This document shows positions 9,254-38,100 of a stretch of 38,100 bases of DNA, one piece after another. The DNA is from a virus: the IMG/VR virus record IMGVR_UViG_3300009181_000167, positions 1 through 38,100 of that record, one strand, 5' to 3'. The notes beneath the pieces are model-generated. The model was given only the letters and a program-made list of their open reading frames with translations. It searched no databases and had not been told where the DNA came from. The stretch's first letter is position 1, and every line of letters begins with the position of its first letter. The position numbers and the translations under genes were made by a program.

Positions 9254-12200
9254 GGCTTAAATCCTTCCAATGGACCGAACAAACGTTCGTAATGTGTCTT
9301 ATAAAAGTCAGCAAAGTTTCTGTCCTTAACGGACAATTCTATCGCTATACCTCTAAATATATCTGTAATCTTAGCAAGATTATCCAAACTAACGTTGTCT
9401 TTGTTTATAGCGTTGCTGACCTTGACTGCGGCATCTTCAAATTTACGATAACCCGCCCCAAGTTGGGGATTCCTCTTGGTTGTTTCTCCGATGAAACGAT
9501 CTGCTTCAGTAAGTTTTCGGGCAGATATAACTGCTGATTGGGCATTATCCCAAGCAGGGTATTTATAGTGGACTAATTCTCCAATAGTAGCCTTATTAAT
9601 TGGCTTTCCAATAAGTCCTGTTTCAACTGGAATCAAATTGGGCCATACAACTCGACTATTAGGATTTTTATAATTGTGTTCAAGGACAGGAGAAAGTCCT
9701 GTTATAAGGCGAGAACGATAATCCCAAGCTGCGTTTTGTTGGGCAGCATCAGGCATTAAAGGATGGCGTTTTGGTTGAAAGTCAGTTTCAACCTGATAAC
9801 TACCAGTAACGCGTTTAATGTTTTCTGCAAGTCCAAGACCTAGAGCAATAGTTTTAGCGGTATCGCCAACTTGACCACTAAGAGCCAATTTGTTTTTATC
9901 TATAAACAAATCCATAAATTCTTTGACCACAGGAACATATTGTTTTAGAAGTTGTAGGTTTCCATCATTCTTTTTTGGTGCGCCGTAATCTAATGTTTTA
10001 GGTCCAAGCAAAGTAAGAAGCCCACTAATGTAAGGAGCGTTAATACCAAAACCTTGCCCAAGTCCTACACCATGTTTAAGAGCGTTTAATTGTTCTACTT
10101 GTTTGATAAGTGGCGTATTGTCTTCCATCCACTTTCGGAATTTAGGTCCATCTACTTGATCGTATAGTTCCATGATTCCTTCAATAACTAAACGTTTGCC
10201 AGGATGAGTCAAAAGGAACATTCCAAATTGGCGCATAACAGTTTTGTTAAATGAGAATGGGAAAAAGATTGCATTGAGTGAACGTTCGGCTGCTGTGCGC
10301 TCGCCATAACCCATAACGTTTTCTAATTTTTGAACTATCTCAGTATCAGAATATCCTTTTTTAGAAAGCCAATAAGCAGACCATTTTTCATATTCCCGTG
10401 GGGAGTAAAGGTTATAAAAATCTGCTTCTTTGATTACACGTTCAGCATCATCAAGAAACATATCTTTTGCTAAGTTCTCAGGGAAAATACGTTTGTAAAT
10501 TTTGTCAGCAGTAGCAGTAATACCCATTTCTTCCATTTTAGATTCAGGATACATAACAGGTGGGATGTCTTCGGTAATACCTTTAAGCATTGTTTTGCTC
10601 ATACGGCGATAAGCAAACACAATTGATTCTTGATAACGAACACGACTACGAAGGTTTTGCAAGCGGGCAGGCGCGCCCTTCATAGTAAAAGCGGTCTTTT
10701 GCACCCATTTTTGTTTAGCAAAACTTCCAAGTCCAACTTTTTCCATCCACGCGGTATTTCCAATACCCATGCCTGCATACAAAATATCTTCAATTTTAGC
10801 AAGGCCACCAATCATTTCCATTGGAACACTTACTCTTGCGCGCCACAGGGCTTGAATGGTTTGTCTTGCAGATTCTTTGCTCATAAATGGATAACCTGCA
10901 TCAAGACCCATAAGTTCTGCAACATCTTTTTCTAAAGGCTTTGTAAGGATTTTCATAAGAACATCAGGTGGAACTTCGCGCAATCCTAATTCTGATTTTT
11001 TGGCTTCTAAAATTTTTGCCCATGCTCCTTCTTCCGTAAGAGAAGAATCTGCTTCCATTAAACGTTTAATAGGAATTTCATAGTTATTTTTTTTAAGAAA
11101 ACTAGATTTAGCAAAATTTAATACTTTTTCTTGACCCCAATATAATTTAGATGTTTTAGGGAGATTTTCATAAATGTAAGTTCTTAAATAACTTGCATTA
11201 AATCCAGGCAAAACTTCAATTTTTCCACTATCAATTCTGTCTTGTAATGTGCGCAATTGTTCTATATTAGATCGAGCAGATACCGCTTCTGAACTAGACA
11301 GGCGAGGACTTATTCCTAACCAAGCATAAGTTCTTGAACTATTCCTAATATTGGCTGCACCTAGATTTGTATATTGAACACCTTTGGTAAATTGATGACC
11401 AATATCAGTTCCATATACAGGTTTGTAACCAAGGTCTTTAAGTTGAGCAACCATCGCCTTTAATTCTTCAGGCGCATCTTTCATTAAATGAAGGTCGCCT
11501 GCAAGTTTATTACCTTCTGCTTCTACTAATGCAAGTAAATCATAGGAATCGTGTCCACCTAATTTATAAACATTAACGCCAAATTCTTCAATTAGGGCTT
11601 TGCCAATAGCAATCTTTGCTGCCATTTTTTCTTCGGGTGTCCCGGCATCTTGCACTTGTTGAAATAATTTATCATAAAGTTTTTTAGCATCATTCTTTGT
11701 CAAAGTATCAATGCGAGCAAGTCCTGCTGCCCCATCAGCCATTTCAGGATTGCTTATATCGCTTATGTTTAATTTAGATGGTGGCACTTCTCCTGTGCCA
11801 ATTCCTGCTTCAAGGTCAGATTGCGCAAGAAGTGATTTTTCTGCTTGTAAAGGTTTTTGAACTTTATATTCATTTAAGGTAGATGGATGAATAAAGTATT
11901 TTTGTAATTCGGGGGCTAAGGCATTTTCAAATACAGCGTTGGCTTTAACTTGATTAGCAAAACTAGAAGTTCCCTTTTTGGCTAAAGAACTAGCGCGGAA
12001 ATCTCCACTAGCTTGAACGCCAATTTCTCTAAATCCTGTTTCCATAGCATTATGATCAACAACTAAACTTTCCCTAGAGGCGGCTAGTCTTCCTTTTGGA
12101 TTAACTACTGCTTCGCGCCAAATCATTTGTTGGGTTTTTTGCGCCCATTCTTCTCTTTCATCTTTGGTCATCTTTAACCAAGTGCCATCTTCAATCAATG

Positions 12201-16320: not shown

Positions 16321-18243
16321 TTATTTGAGCCAGCGAGAACCTCTGCCAGTCATCCAACTAGGTCGTGCAAATGTTGGTGGTTTATCCATCCCAATATGAA
16401 AAAGATTTGGTGCGTTCCAAATTAAAAACCAATGCGCCATTACGCAGTCATCAGTTGATCCTTCGGGCCAGTTAATAAGTTCTTTTACCATAGGTTTTAT
16501 TGTTGCTTTTGACCCTGAGTATTCAGAACCAGGAAGACGAACTCGACCAGCTTTGTAATGGGGAGCAAGAGTTTGAACTCCATAGCCTTCATCAGATTTA
16601 TTGCGATTTGTTTGGTGTGGAATCAAAGTGATATTTCTAATTGCAGACCACCGTTTGAAATGGTCATACTGAAGCATGAACCTTTGAGCAGCATTAGCCT
16701 CAACTATTAAATGGGTAAATGGGTGTCCTTGGTCATTTGAACGAAGCCACCATTCTTCAAGCAACCCTGTGAACTGACGACTATCTTGGTTGTAGTCTAG
16801 GAAATCCGGGGCATCCATAGGTGAGCGCACTAGATCAACTAAATGTTGAATTTGAGTTTCAGGGTTATAACCCCACCATTGAACTGCCCAATACTTTGTA
16901 GGAGATGGGTCAGCCGTTACAACAGAATAAGCGTTTATGTTATCGGGCCATTTACCTGCCACTCGGCTTTCATCCCAACAGCCTTGGTGCATTGAACCAG
17001 TCGAATCAATACCCCCGTCAATCCAAGTTTGTTGAATTAGGCTTGCTTCTTTATCCACATCTTCCTGTTGATAAAGTGTTTGAAAACGATCTAGGCGGTT
17101 TGATTTAATACGAGCTAATTCTTTCCAAGGCAAACGATATTCATCTAGCAAACATCCATCAGGATAATTTCCTTTATGCCCGGCATGGCTTTTTTCTGTA
17201 TCACACAATTCTTCGTAGTGTGCTTTGTAAACAATATGATGATATTTTTTTGGCGCTTGTTCAGGTTTATCCTCAAACTCTAAAGACCAGTCAACAAGGT
17301 TAAGTGCGTAACGATACAAGTCATCAGATGCCATTCTTTGTCCTTGTAAAATTAAAAGCCCACCCGGATCAAGGCGAGTTTCAGCTTCTGTTTCCCACCA
17401 GTTAATTAAATTCTCACGCGCTTCGGTAGTTCGGATATTTGTTTTATCCACAAGGTCATCCCAAATAACTGTATCGAAACGACCACCAAGAAATCCTGAG
17501 TCCATACCGTAAGCAACAAAGTTAGGTTCTTTATCATCAATAGCAACCCCGCCATCTTGCGCAAGGATGAATTCTTCCAAACGCCAAAGGTCAGAGTTAG
17601 CAGGTTTGAATCTTCCGTAGTCTGTGATGAGGGTTGAAACTGCATCTTTAGCAAGCCCACGTTCAATCAAATCTGCATCAGCTTTAACAGGAGTTACACG
17701 TTCAAAAGTTCTGCGGATACGACCTGTGTATTTAGTTGCTTGTCCTGCGGTTCTTGAACCAATCATTGTTCGGCGTGAGCGATCACGAACAGCAAGCCAA
17801 ACAGGTAGGTCATGCGTAAAGAAAGTTGACTTACCAACGCCAGGTGGACAGTTAACTACAACGTATTCTTTTTGTTTTGTCCCGGCTAATTCTAAAATCT
17901 TATACGCCGCTTCCTCAGCCCAAGGTGAAGTTGAGCGAGCAAAATATCTTTGACGAAAATAACCAAAGTCTTCTAGCGCCCTAGCAGCATCACCCTTAAC
18001 AGAGTCAAGTCCAAACACGCCTGCTTTCTCAAATCCAATTTCACCGAGAGCTTTGTTTAAGCGCGAAGTAGGAATCTTTGCTTGGCGCATTACAGATGCG
18101 TAACTAATGCCTGCCATACTTGCAGCAGTTCTTTGTGAGTGTCCTTGACTTACAGCCTTAGCATATTTTTGCCAACGAGTATCATCAATTCTTTTATTGG
18201 TTTTACCCGCATTGCTAGTCGCCAATTTCTTCTTCTTCCTCAA
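16321..18243 (-). CDS. terL: Terminase large subunit with N-terminal HTH-like extension
   Basis: The frame gives 640 residues from a TTG at 18243; a TTG at 18225 is also possible, and no ATG lies nearby. It is the packaging ATPase and nuclease. Motifs: Walker A PPGVGKST (133-140), Walker B FDTVIWDDLVD (256-266), coupling motif GQR (301-303). Nuclease acidic residues: D445 in TADPSP, E515 in IVEANA, and DD near 598. The ATPase begins unusually late. Residues about 25-60 (QGHSQRTAASMAGISYASVM) look like a helix-turn-helix, as in small terminase subunits. No separate small subunit gene was found. Confidence 0.95.
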   Translation of the reverse strand: MRKKKKLATSNAGKTNKRIDDTRWQKYAKAVSQGHSQRTAASMAGISYASVMRQAKIPTSRLNKALGEIGFEKAGVFGLDSVKGDAARALEDFGYFRQRYFARSTSPWAEEAAYKILELAGTKQKEYVVVNCPPGVGKSTFFTHDLPVWLAVRDRSRRTMIGSRTAGQATKYTGRIRRTFERVTPVKADADLIERGLAKDAVSTLITDYGRFKPANSDLWRLEEFILAQDGGVAIDDKEPNFVAYGMDSGFLGGRFDTVIWDDLVDKTNIRTTEARENLINWWETEAETRLDPGGLLILQGQRMASDDLYRYALNLVDWSLEFEDKPEQAPKKYHHIVYKAHYEELCDTEKSHAGHKGNYPDGCLLDEYRLPWKELARIKSNRLDRFQTLYQQEDVDKEASLIQQTWIDGGIDSTGSMHQGCWDESRVAGKWPDNINAYSVVTADPSPTKYWAVQWWGYNPETQIQHLVDLVRSPMDAPDFLDYNQDSRQFTGLLEEWWLRSNDQGHPFTHLIVEANAAQRFMLQYDHFKRWSAIRNITLIPHQTNRNKSDEGYGVQTLAPHYKAGRVRLPGSEYSGSKATIKPMVKELINWPEGSTDDCVMAHWFLIWNAPNLFHIGMDKPPTFARPSWMTGRGSRWLK

Positions 18244-19039
18244 ATTCTACAAAGCAATTGCAACCGCCAATATCTAATTCATCAATCATAGTTGGAGAGG
18301 CTTCGTGTCTGCGCCGTAATTCAATTAAAGGCAATGGGATTCTAACTCCATCTACCATCTCTCGAAGGATAGTTACATCTTGCCCAATAACTTCTCTTAT
18401 GTGGTTTTCTTTTTCTTCCCATACAGAAAAGCGATCTGGCATAACTTCAAGAAGTTTTTTGAATTGACCTTGACCTGCACGAACACAACCACCACCGCAG
18501 TTGTTATGCGAAAATCCTAAATCATAAAGGCGTGGGGTTTTTAATCCTTCGCGTTGCGCCCATTCCATAAGTTGTTTTTTATCGTAGTAAGGTGGTTCAG
18601 ATAATGGTGCTTCAGCTTTGTATGGAAGATAATTTTTAACAATTGCTGGCAGGCGATGAGTTTCGCTCCAGTCAATGCCTACATAAATTACGGTGTCTTC
18701 AGGGTCGCAATTTTCTTTTAACCATTTACGAGCTGGTCGTTGCTTAAGAAGTTTAGAACAATTAGCCACACGCGAGTTACCTAAGAATTTTTGATCCTCA
18801 AACAAAGTCCAAATATCTCTGCCTTCATTAAGGTAAATGTAATGACCGCCACCGATATTGGTAATTGCATCTTTGATAAATCGGTAGGTGTCTTCATCTT
18901 CGCCTATGTGGGGATTATTAGAAGCGCCTTTAACATCAGCAAAAACTAAATACAAATCTTCAGTTCCAAAACGCTCAGTTACAATCTTGGCAGTTGCCCA
19001 AGAGCCGATACCACCTGAGAACATTACGACACGCTTCAT
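18215..19039 (-). CDS. PP-loop ATP pyrophosphatase / PAPS-reductase-like enzyme
   Basis: This 274-residue protein has an N-terminal PP-loop, FSGGIGSWATAK (residues 7-18), placing it in the adenine nucleotide alpha-hydrolase superfamily that includes PAPS reductases, DndC and tRNA thiolases. Cys residues in VANCSKLL, NNCGGGCVRAGQGQ and GGCNC could bind a metal or Fe-S cluster or carry sulfur. A good site (AAAGGGTGTT) precedes the ATG. It is the first gene of the late operon and overlaps terL. The substrate cannot be read from the sequence. DNA or RNA sulfuration or base modification is a hypothesis. Confidence 0.8.
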   Translation of the reverse strand: MKRVVMFSGGIGSWATAKIVTERFGTEDLYLVFADVKGASNNPHIGEDEDTYRFIKDAITNIGGGHYIYLNEGRDIWTLFEDQKFLGNSRVANCSKLLKQRPARKWLKENCDPEDTVIYVGIDWSETHRLPAIVKNYLPYKAEAPLSEPPYYDKKQLMEWAQREGLKTPRLYDLGFSHNNCGGGCVRAGQGQFKKLLEVMPDRFSVWEEKENHIREVIGQDVTILREMVDGVRIPLPLIELRRRHEASPTMIDELDIGGCNCFVEFEEEEEIGD

Positions 19040-19130
19040 AACACCCTTTCATCAGGTTACACTCTATCACTTGCGCATTATGAATAATCAATGCTAAGGT
19101 GCTTTTGCTTCACTAAAACTTAATAATGGC

Positions 19131-19530
19131 AGCGTGGCACACCATGTAAAAAACCACGCACACTACCGATCCTAGTGTGGCCCCGTTTGATGGGTAAGTC
19201 ATCCATGCCCAAGTATTGCTTGGCAAAAGGTGTAGCTGACCGAGGAACTTATTTATAAGAGCAATGAGTTAAAACAGCGAGATGAATCTATTGGCGACTA
19301 AACACGAACTGCCTTACCGCCGATAAAAAGAATAGACCATCACATAGCGCAGTTGGGTGTAAGCCCCTATCTAACAGATAGTCCTTAACTAAGGCTATCT
19401 ATGCCCCGGCTCGATAAGATTGTGGTTTTAAGTCCACTAAATAAAATTACATAAATGTCTTAAAGCAAAACGATAAGAAGCAGTTTAACGACTTGCTCAG
19501 GTCTGGAGAGATCAGAACTTAAACCTGACC
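19131..19530. ncRNA. Candidate large structured RNA
   Basis: Perfect pairings occur in series. GCGTGG 19133-19138 pairs with CCACGC 19155-19160. ACACTA 19161-19166 pairs with TAGTGT 19074+100-19179 (that is 19174-19179). GCC-AAG 19208-19214 pairs with CTTGGC 19220-19225 with one bulge. TCTATTGGCG 19288-19297 pairs with CGCC 19319-19322 and AATAGA 19332-19337. AGATAG-CCTT 19377-19387 pairs with AAGGCTATCT 19392-19401. TCAGGTCTG 19498-19506 pairs with CAGA 19514-19517 and CCTGA 19525-19529. CTATCT at 19368-19373 offers an alternative partner for AGATAG. Strand is not determined. Confidence 0.5.
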
Positions 19531-19632
19531 TAAATACAAGTCTAGCAAATAGATTACGGTAGTGAGATATAGTTCGTATGGTGATATAAATAAGCGCGCC
19601 CACACACACCCTCGGCACACTACCCGTCAAAG

Positions 19633-19646
19633 CGAACAAGCGTTCG
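19633..19646. promoter_or_regulatory. SOS box 1 (LexA-type operator)
   Basis: CGAAC-AAGC-GTTCG is a perfect palindrome with a 4-bp spacer and a flanking A giving GTTCGA. It fits the LexA box of Actinobacteria (TCGAAC-N4-GTTCGA). It lies in the intergenic hub 43 bp from a second copy, close to four helical turns. Host LexA is the likely ligand, since no LexA or CI-like repressor is recognised in the window. Confidence 0.65.
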
Positions 19647-19676
19647 AGTAAATAGGGGATACCTAATAAATAATTA

Positions 19677-19690
19677 GAACAAGCGTTCGA
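19677..19690. promoter_or_regulatory. SOS box 2 (LexA-type operator)
   Basis: AGAAC-AAGC-GTTCGA shares the whole core of box 1, including the spacer AAGC. Between the two boxes lies the AT-rich stretch CCTAATAAATAATTAG, which could hold a -10 element on either strand. Paired operators around a promoter would let LexA occlude or loop it, giving induction on DNA damage. Confidence 0.6.
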
Positions 19691-19924
19691 ATACTTCCAT
19701 ACATTCGGGGCGATGCCCCCAATATCTAGGACAATTCAACACCCCCACCCCCTTAAGTCTTCTCTATCTTTCGGCGATAAATGCGGGCAAACATTGGGGC
19801 AATGATGGGCAACTAATAGAGAAAGAAACTACGGGGCAGGGGTCATCTATCTGCAAAGTTTGCGGGGATCAAAAATAAAGAAGGCAAGAGTTCGGGCAAT
19901 AACCAAGGGCGATGCGTAGCTTTT

Positions 19925-19972
19925 GGGGATTAAATGGGGATAAGTTGGGGAAAACCTTTGGGAATGTGGGGG
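19925..19972 (+). other. Phased G-run array, possible G-quadruplex
   Basis: G-runs lie at 19925-19928, 19936-19939, 19947-19950, 19960-19962 and 19968-19972. The first three start exactly 11 nt apart with similar spacers (ATTAAAT, ATAAGTT). Loops of 7, 7, 9 and 5 nt permit a G-quadruplex on the plus strand. It could also be an iteron-like or polypurine element at an origin or regulatory site. Confidence 0.4.
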
Positions 19973-20215
19973 AGAGAAACTATAAATCCCCTTTCCTCTC
20001 TTTCCTTCCTTAGTTCACGCTCAAATTAAAGGTTCGGCGGTGGTTTACCCTGGGTTTTACAAAGGGCAGGTTTTTGTCTATCTCTTGCCCCTTATTGATA
20101 CCAAACAGAAACCCCCTTTTTGCCCCTTTCGGTGGTTCTTTTTTGCCTTTTTATAGATTACGCTTAGGGCAACAGATTCGGCGAGAGTGTCGGATCAATG
20201 ACGAAAGGCTAGAAA

Positions 20216-20740
20216 ATGAAAACGGAACTTAAATATCCGATGGTTTTCGATGTACTAAAAGAAATGGAAAAAACCTGCCCCCCCTATTGGCGCTTATCTT
20301 ATGAATACCCCGATTCCATCGGCATTTGGCATCCTTCCTTTATTTCCGATGAACAATTCATCATGTTTGGGGATGTAAACGAACATTTCGGTTTTAATGA
20401 TACAAATGCCGACAAAGTTTGCGGATATATGGAAGGAATCTACGACACCGCCGAAATTATAAAAAGTTTTTGGGCGCAAATTGCGGAAATTTATCCCGAA
20501 CTTTTCGAACTTTCCACTTATCACGGTTTGATAAAGGTTTCCTGCATTTTGTGCGAATACGAAACCAAAAGCGTTTCTGAAATGGAAATGTTAAACGATT
20601 TAGACGGAACCTGCCCAAAATGCACTAAACAGTTTTTTAGATGGGAAAATAAGGATGGTTCTGTTGTTGTTTCTTTAACAAAAGATTTTGACGGATTGCA
20701 CACTTACGACAATTTACAAGACACAAAGGGAGAAAAATAA
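20216..20740 (+). CDS. Unknown protein with C-terminal zinc ribbon
   Basis: This 174-residue protein starts MKTELKYPMVFDVLKEMEKT after AAAGG. The N-terminal two thirds are aromatic-rich and match nothing I know. Residues about 112-140 contain CILC and, after about 20 residues, CPKC, a zinc-ribbon pattern. It is first in a rightward block of six small genes, opposite in direction to the packaging operon, and the leader comes from the structured non-coding hub. Confidence 0.75.
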   Translation: MKTELKYPMVFDVLKEMEKTCPPYWRLSYEYPDSIGIWHPSFISDEQFIMFGDVNEHFGFNDTNADKVCGYMEGIYDTAEIIKSFWAQIAEIYPELFELSTYHGLIKVSCILCEYETKSVSEMEMLNDLDGTCPKCTKQFFRWENKDGSVVVSLTKDFDGLHTYDNLQDTKGEK

Positions 20741-20741
20741 A

Positions 20742-21155
20742 ATGGGCGCTTTAACTACCTGCAAAGACTTTGTTTCTCATCCTCATTTAGTGGAAACCAC
20801 CCACATTTTCAAAGATAAAGACGGCAAAGAAACAAAAGATGTAAGAATGGGCGGGTGTTATGTGTGCCGATGTGCAAGCGCATCCGAAGAAATAAACCCA
20901 ATCGCCGAAGAATTAGAGTCTTTGGGGATCAAAAACGAAATTCATCAAACGGGCGGTTTCACTATGTGCATTTACATAAAGACAGGGAAAAATTCCTACA
21001 TTTACGCAAACACCGAAGGCGCGGGGCATTACACAAACGACGAAGACGACGAAGGAACAAACCTTTTGTTTTTCGGCGATGAAGATACCCCAACAATCAA
21101 GGCGCAAAAACTTTCCTTAGTGATGAAACACAACAAAATCAAAGTCAAAAAGTAG
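20742..21155 (+). CDS. Unknown accessory protein
   Basis: This 137-residue protein starts at ATG 20742, preceded by AAAGGGAGAAAAA; the frame is open further upstream but would overlap the previous gene. It has Cys in GGCYVCRCASA and a mixed alpha/beta look (GFTMCIYIKTGKNSYIYANT). An acidic stretch (NDEDDEGT) and a basic C-terminus (MKHNKIKVKK) follow. It is not assigned to a family. It is part of the rightward accessory block and is followed by the tRNA-like element. Confidence 0.7.
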   Translation: MGALTTCKDFVSHPHLVETTHIFKDKDGKETKDVRMGGCYVCRCASASEEINPIAEELESLGIKNEIHQTGGFTMCIYIKTGKNSYIYANTEGAGHYTNDEDDEGTNLLFFGDEDTPTIKAQKLSLVMKHNKIKVKK

Positions 21156-21160
21156 TAAAA

Positions 21161-21207
21161 GCCCTTCCCGAAATTGGGGGTTTGCGGTTCGAATCCGCGC
21201 AGGGCGC
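21161..21207 (+). other. tRNA-like mini-element lacking a D arm
   Basis: A tRNA T arm is clear: TGCGG-TTCGAAT-CCGCG at 21184-21200, with the canonical GGTTCGAATCC. It is followed by CAGGGC, which pairs with GCCCT at 21161-21165 (GCCCTTC against GCAGGGC, one mismatch). Only about 15 nt separate the 5' strand from the T arm, enough for a small CCC/GGG hairpin but not for D and anticodon arms. It may be a tRNA remnant, an attachment-site core or a tRNA mimic. Confidence 0.5.
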
Positions 21208-21235
21208 TAATCCTAGAAAATCGGTTCTAGGATTA
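21208..21235 (+). other. 11-bp perfect hairpin after the tRNA-like element
   Basis: TAATCCTAGAA at 21208-21218 and TTCTAGGATTA at 21225-21235 are exact inverted repeats around the loop AATCGG. No U tract follows, so it is not a standard terminator. It directly abuts the tRNA-like element and precedes the next start at 21252, so it could protect or process a short RNA or shape the downstream leader. Confidence 0.6.
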
Positions 21236-37727: not shown

Positions 37728-38100
37728 TTATGAGTTCTTGATGCCGTATAGATAAAAGGTTGAGTATTGGGCAAAATTATTAGCATTTGGGGTGCAAGTA
37801 ATTGAGGTAATTGCCGCAGGAGTTGCAGCCCATAGACCTGCGAGAAAATCAGCGTAAGCAGTTGCAGCATTATTTTCGCTGACCGTATCTGTACTAACAG
37901 CCTTATAATTGCTGGTGCTAAGGTAATTAGGTATGTAAACATCGCTGTTTGAAAAAGTAGAAGCGGTATAACTAGAAGGTACTAATTCGCTGTCCGTTCC
38001 AGTAATACTTCCTGCGGTAGATGAAGCGGCTGCACCATTTCCAGTGAGAATTTTATTTGTATAACTGCTTGATGAACCATTAAAAGTAATTACACAATCT
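37728..38100 (-). CDS. Tail fibre-like protein, C-terminal part (enters from the right edge)
   Basis: The stop TAA is at 37728-37730, and the frame runs open to the right edge, giving 123 residues. CVITFNGSSSSYTNKILTGN, the segment ATPAAITSITCTPNANNFAQ and the end YSTFYLYGIKNS are typical of a beta-sandwich phage surface protein whose usual N-terminal 50 or so residues lie outside the window. It is followed by a small Ala-rich gene with a strong ribosome-binding site. Confidence 0.8.
   Translation of the reverse strand, partial: DCVITFNGSSSSYTNKILTGNGAAASSTAGSITGTDSELVPSSYTASTFSNSDVYIPNYLSTSNYKAVSTDTVSENNAATAYADFLAGLWAATPAAITSITCTPNANNFAQYSTFYLYGIKNS

Follow-up and report, generated by a model that had tools for sequence, protein, structure and literature searches.

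Few classes of large structured phage RNA are known. GOLLD assembles as a 14-mer RNA cage and ROOL as a multimeric RNA cage, and phage tRNA genes are frequently, if not universally, found near or within GOLLD. The pRNA of phi29, whose gene lies close to the genome end at which packaging begins, is a folded RNA that works with the packaging ATPase and is required for its activity, while OLE, found in Firmicutes, is a cellular RNA that has protein partners. We know of no RNA component for TerL proteins of the phrog_38 type, the type encoded in the DNA analysed here. GOLLD and ROOL form cages of RNA only and often lie near tRNA islands in phages, and GOLLD joins a variable 5' part to a more conserved later part (PMC12286853). 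The RNA described below resembles GOLLD, whose name records its lake origin, in being a large structured noncoding phage RNA with a more variable 5' part, but it does not match the GOLLD covariance model, is about half the size (GOLLD often exceeds 800 nt), is not accompanied by a tRNA array and is linked in position to TerL and to a packaging-like site. With ROOL it shares the character of a large phage or prophage RNA with pseudoknots; however, it does not match the ROOL covariance model, and ROOL often lies near tRNA islands. Like phi29 pRNA it is a folded phage RNA; it lies between TerL and a cos-like element, a putative genome-end position, but it is 2–3 times longer, has no Rfam match and accompanies a phrog_38-type TerL. 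OLE is likewise a large ornate bacterial RNA class, but its model is not matched either. Since neither the covariance models nor the setting of GOLLD and ROOL fit, the RNA very likely belongs to a separate class outside the known families.

The window, the whole stretch of DNA analysed, corresponds to a viral record of 38.1 kb. Its − strand bears an operon headed by TerL; the capsid genes lie further left, and to the right of the gap that holds the RNA most genes have no known function. This 1.18-kb gap extends from a PAPS-reductase-like gene (18215–19039, −) to an unknown gene (20216–20740, +). The sequence-only reading of the locus had described 19131–19530 as gene-free, and indeed no ORF of at least 60 aa overlaps it on either strand. 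The PAPS-reductase-like gene separates TerL from the RNA in this phage, TerL directly adjoining the RNA in most relatives. It appears to be an insertion; its own relatives, tried as a source of homologues, lie in other phage contexts from which the element is absent. The open frames at the two window ends (3–614 and 37728–38099) run into each other in the same reading frame if the record is closed on itself, so this may be an entire genome that is circularly permuted.

Comparison of the whole window with all 4227 Rfam families gave no match at the gathering score, the packaging-RNA model (phi29 pRNA) included, and at E ≤ 10 the region 19040–20215 gave chance-level matches only, none to GOLLD, ROOL, OLE or HEARO. 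ARAGORN finds no tRNA genes in the window. This outcome fits the new class, and the earlier suggestion of a new or divergent large RNA is upheld by the Rfam results together with the strong covariation described below; an identity with GOLLD or ROOL is not supported, since neither model matches, the window lacks tRNA genes, and size and setting differ. A keyword search of the open-access literature, a scope outside which most subscription papers and preprints fall, returned no description of this RNA.

The element occurs in 18 further freshwater phage contigs of the same TerL clade (∼60–85% identity; TerL identity at least about 78%), upstream of TerL and in opposite orientation; 16 of these contigs span it and two (L021 and L029) are cut off by the contig end. 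All clade members whose upstream region is covered have the fold, at a constant position between TerL and a DNA element resembling a packaging site. A covariance-model search of 74 related and unrelated loci (735 kb) matched the window and 17 contigs at E ≤ 1.1e-10 and nothing beyond them up to E = 1; L029, which carries the 5' part only, stands outside these 17. Four pattern scans of viral contigs and one scan of genomes yielded no copy outside the TerL clade, the single match in the genome scan (L129) being attributed to chance, as it falls within a 487-aa ORF and is missed by the structure model. Pattern matches in L198, L200 and L201 were unconfirmed by that model, nhmmer shows no family relation for the other matches to the 3' pattern (∼60 loci), and annotated phage records gave no DNA match to the RNA.

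The abundance of stems on which the sequence-only reading was built proves nothing by itself, because the single sequence folds no better than shuffled sequence (MFE z = −1.01 on the + strand and −0.32 on the − strand, neither significant), and folding energy was set aside as evidence. On its own comparison of stems with shuffled sequence, the weakest of the tests it named, the sequence-only reading would thus have failed. The argument for a conserved structure comes instead from the homologues. Two sequence-only MAFFT alignments, D1 (PK1, P2, P3 and P4; 11 sequences) and D2 (P7a, P7b and PK2; 13 sequences), were scored against one structure proposed from the same sequences, and compensatory double changes were found in 34 of the 48 proposed base pairs. 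In D2, 87.5% of cells are paired, 21 of 24 pairs show changes on both sides, and the covariation score of 0.739 compares with 0.239 ± 0.028 for shuffled alignments (reached by 0 of 500). The corresponding values for D1 are 97.3% of cells, double changes in 13 of 24 pairs, and a score of 0.406 against 0.162 ± 0.019 (0 of 500). The shuffle control ignores relatedness; sliding the partner strand, a control that accounts for it, gave scores of at most 0.200 for D2 and 0.083 for D1. A measure of further pair types in D1 was not above shuffles (389 of 500). Proposing the structure from the same sequences favours it to some degree, a minor concern because the effect is large and the pseudoknot partners are independent. 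Strong covariation is observed in seven helices, as against the three or more stems that the sequence-only reading had named as supporting evidence, and indicates that a fold at the RNA level is under selection.

Features of the locus (window coordinates unless stated; strand as read)
Feature	Position	Strand	Details
Promoter-like site	19071–19100	+	−35 TTGCGC (19071–19076), N18, extended −10 TGC-TAAGGT (TAAGGT 19095–19100)
Structured noncoding RNA	19107–19550	+	ends inferred; homology in 18 contigs, covariation
PK1, H-type pseudoknot	19126–19159	+	all cells paired
PK1 S1	19126–19129 / 19142–19145	+	ATGG/CCAT; ACGG/CCGT in L045, AGAG/CTCT in L030
PK1 S2	19132–19137 / 19154–19159	+	GCGTGG/CCACGC; double changes in 4/6 pairs
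P2 hairpin	19160–19165 / 19173–19178	+	ACACTA/TAGTGT; double changes in 4/6 pairs, 100% paired
P3 hairpin	19182–19194	+	CCC/GGG, 7-nt loop GTTTGAT; invariant in standard 5' domain
P4 hairpin	19209–19213 / 19219–19223	+	CCAAG/CTTGG; double changes in 4/5 pairs
P6 hairpin	19246–19270	+	AACTTATT/AATGAGTT; different complementary arms in L017, L033, L019, L026
Invariant GCGAG	19277–19281	+	identical across all members
P7 long hairpin	19281–19341	+	double changes in 16/18 pairs
P7a	19281–19284 / 19338–19341; 19287–19291 / 19332–19336	+	GATG/CATC; TCTAT/ATAGA
P7b	19293–19296 / 19318–19321; 19299–19301 / 19314–19316	+	GGCG/CGCC; TAA/TTA
PK2	19307–19312 / 19349–19354	+	P7 loop AACTGC with GCAGTT; double changes in 5/6 pairs
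P8 hairpin	19355–19366	+	GGGT-GTAA-GCCC, GNRA tetraloop; loop variants
P9 hairpin	19377–19399	+	GATAG-T-CCTT-AACT-AAGG-CTATC; read from sequence and alignment, little variation
P10 candidate hairpin	19422–19437	+	GTGG-TTTTAAGT-CCAC; conserved letters in alignment
TCAGGT/ACCTGA hairpin	19497–19528	+	TCAGGTCTG; insertion in this phage only, gap in other members
Conserved DNA element	19549–19632		ATAGATTACG..GGTGATA (19580), exactly 34 bp, GGCACACTACCCGTCA (19614–19629)
Small basic ORF, L022	5055–5216 (locus)	−	
Small basic ORF, L030	3920–4108 (locus)	−	
Small basic ORF, L025	5318–5506 (locus)	−	

Conserved helices span 19126–19399 and conserved letters continue with gaps to ∼19465, the 3' third of the RNA (19400–19550) being poorly conserved. 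The 5' end was placed from promoter spacing and the 3' end from where the separate DNA element begins. The interval 19131–19530 first proposed does lie within the RNA, but the RNA starts earlier, given the promoter-like site and a first conserved helix at 19126, and its end shifts to probably near 19550. Most of the stems named at that stage are real parts of the fold: GCGTGG/CCACGC, ACACTA/TAGTGT and CCAAG/CTTGG are PK1-S2, P2 and P4, and the nested TCTAT/ATAGA with GGCG/CGCC is helix P7, whereas TCAGGT/ACCTGA is no conserved stem. P2 adjoins PK1, the loop 3 of which is A-rich (GTAAAAAA). The P7 loop pairs downstream to form PK2, the clearest case of covariation, with AATCAC/GTGATT, TGTCTC/GAGATA and AGTTAC/GTAACT in other members. 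P6 directly precedes a conserved AAACAGCGAG, though it is not recovered there in every member; P8 carries GTAA, GCAA or GAAA loops in half of the family and is an ACCCC/GGGGT-type hairpin in the other half; several homologues have GTGGTTTTAGAACAT at the position of P10. Two long-range pairs from a repeat search, CTTATTTATA/TATAAATAAG and CACTACCG/CGGTAGTG, show no conservation in the alignment, and the latter clashes with the conserved P2.

The 5' domain is modular, being replaced in L022/L023 and in L030/L025. The letters in L030 and L025 are unrelated, yet the same H-type pseudoknot layout (AGAG-TTG-TCAGAC-TAG-CTCT-ATGAAA-GTCTGA in L030) is followed by P3 with the loop GTTAGAT; L022 and L023 have a variant domain that keeps P3 with the loop GTTAGAG. 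P3 itself is CCTC/GAGG in L030 and CAGG/CCTG in L022 and L023, the loop reading GTTAGA[TG]. Directly upstream of the RNA, variant-5' members carry same-strand small basic ORFs (54–63 aa), a possible protein partner or leader; that of L022 is unrelated by BLAST to that of L030/L025.

Several observations bear on the strand. A TTG-N16..18-TGNTANNNT pattern, found in 0.2–1.5% of shuffles per sequence, lies 61–94 nt upstream of PK1-S2 in 11/11 members with the standard 5' domain; upstream of L022, L023 and L030, the three members with a variant 5' domain that were searched, it did not turn up. Across D1 and D2, G-U cells outnumber A-C cells by 23 to 13, the excess coming from D2 only (D1 alone has 0 G-U and 3 A-C cells), and the P8 loops vary exactly as GNRA on the + strand only. 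Read on the + strand, PK1 has ordinary H-type geometry: two nucleotides bridge the deep groove of a 6-bp stem, and loop 3, rich in A, has 8 nt. On the − strand, by contrast, a 2-nt loop would have to span the shallow groove of those 6 bp, which is not ordinary geometry. Because the G-U excess, GNRA loops, PK1 geometry and promoter-like site agree, there is a strong case for the + strand, which orients the RNA divergently from TerL. The promoter-like site stands beside a divergent TerL leader, TGCAAGTGATAGGGTGTAAGCATTACGAAAGG, which is conserved before the TerL operon (window 19045–19078, −) and upstream of TerL in relatives, recurs before another gene in L026 and is likely the late promoter of the clade. 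The two options originally offered, a late-operon leader or a separate transcript, can accordingly be weighed: the RNA is not the TerL leader, since it diverges from the late operon, and a + strand transcript of its own is favoured.

The block at 19549–19632 was set aside as part of the RNA because distant TerL relatives (about 46–47% identity; L151, L152, L156, L181 and L040), in which no such RNA was detected, carry it with the same fixed spacing; it is probably a separate DNA element. The 34-bp spacing is shared by most family members and these distant relatives. The second half reads GGCACAC.CCC.GTCA, with GGCACACNCCNGTCA after the spacing in the distant relatives, and L041 retains mainly this half. 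A DNA–protein site is indicated because the spacing is fixed while the letters between vary freely, and its place beside TerL makes a cos or packaging reading natural; the element is probably such a site. Contig ends lie near it in L158 (22 bp), L152 (55 bp), L181 (93 bp) and L021 (about 21 bp), a fit that is suggestive only. The likeness of GGCACACACCCCGTCAAAG to 16S rRNA ACACACCGCCCGTCA was judged coincidental because GGCACACACCCCGTCAAAG belongs to this element, and look-alikes of hammerhead (CTGATGA) and group I intron (GATATAGT) motifs in the block proved, by eye, not conserved or without partner motifs. LexA/SOS-like boxes of actinobacterial type, CGAACAAGCGTTCG, follow at 19633–19646 and 19677–19689 and recur at 9276–9289; they are paired beside the RNA in the window, L017 and L045. 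These boxes suggest LexA-type control and an actinobacterial host, and the freshwater phages carrying the RNA probably infect actinobacteria.

Our results are best accounted for by a phage gene whose product is a large folded noncoding RNA of ∼440 nt. A promoter of its own would drive + strand transcription, in divergent arrangement with the promoter region of the TerL late operon. The shared divergent promoter region points to late expression, and the product would act in trans as a folded RNA, neither mRNA nor simple antisense; we hold a trans-acting + strand RNA gene to be probable. The likeliest specific role, though no more than a tentative proposal, lies in late infection next to the terminase/packaging module, where the RNA would scaffold or regulate the machinery for packaging or assembly. 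The link to packaging is drawn from position alone, and vertical inheritance would hold any gene of the clade in its place. A packaging-motor RNA of cos-type tailed phages, unrelated to phi29 pRNA and co-expressed with TerL, is unlikely. Alternatively, and also doubtful, the RNA may be abundant and assemble with itself into a cage or dimer made of RNA only and without a part in packaging, with GOLLD/ROOL-like roles such as binding host ribosomes or holding tRNAs. The phage setting, elaborate fold, pseudoknots and GNRA loops are consistent with this, as are the swapped 5' domain of L022/L023 and L030/L025 and the variable 5' and more conserved later parts, as in GOLLD (PMC12286853), but the RNA is smaller, has no Rfam match or tRNA genes in the window and is confined to one TerL clade. 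Among the candidate roles, position slightly favours a packaging or assembly RNA and precedent a GOLLD/ROOL-like assembly.

A cis-acting alternative, in which the RNA is the leader at the head of a long + strand transcript and controls the genes rightward from 20216 as riboswitch or attenuator, is rather improbable. The gene at 20216–20740 lies on the same strand with no other obvious gene in the gap before it, and the small same-strand ORF upstream in L022, L025 and L030 indicates that the RNA can sit inside a longer transcript; however, ∼670 nt with the packaging-like element and paired LexA-like boxes separate the RNA from that gene, and the region yielded no + strand terminator. Still less probable is an origin-linked RNA, transcribed toward the right-hand region so as to prime or activate DNA replication there: single or paired DnaA-box-like TGGGGATAA sites lie to the right in several members, and TTATCCACA boxes stand beside the same DNA element in the distant relative L156, but the TGGGGATAA box is degenerate and missing in several members, the contig ends fit a packaging site better and a primer needs no elaborate fold. 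Conservation purely at the DNA level, as operator or cos arms with the inverted repeats acting as cruciforms or protein sites, probably describes 19549–19632 but is very improbable for the RNA, because protein sites conserve letters rather than pairing, and across 19126–19366 the arms vary freely in sequence without losing complementarity, partner strands form pseudoknots and one loop varies within the GNRA pattern.

The RNA is fairly well delimited, folds compactly with two pseudoknots, exists in many divergent natural variants and keeps a fixed address beside terminase, so that it lends itself directly to structure probing, cryo-EM and a packaging test. The freshwater phages from which it comes, probably phages of actinobacteria, have an RNA biology that is hardly explored. 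Further right in the window, 21155–21235 resembles the 3' half of a tRNA without a D-arm and without an ARAGORN call; it has a GCGGTTCGAATCCGC T-arm and a GCCCT/AGGGC closing stem and is followed by a terminator-like hairpin.
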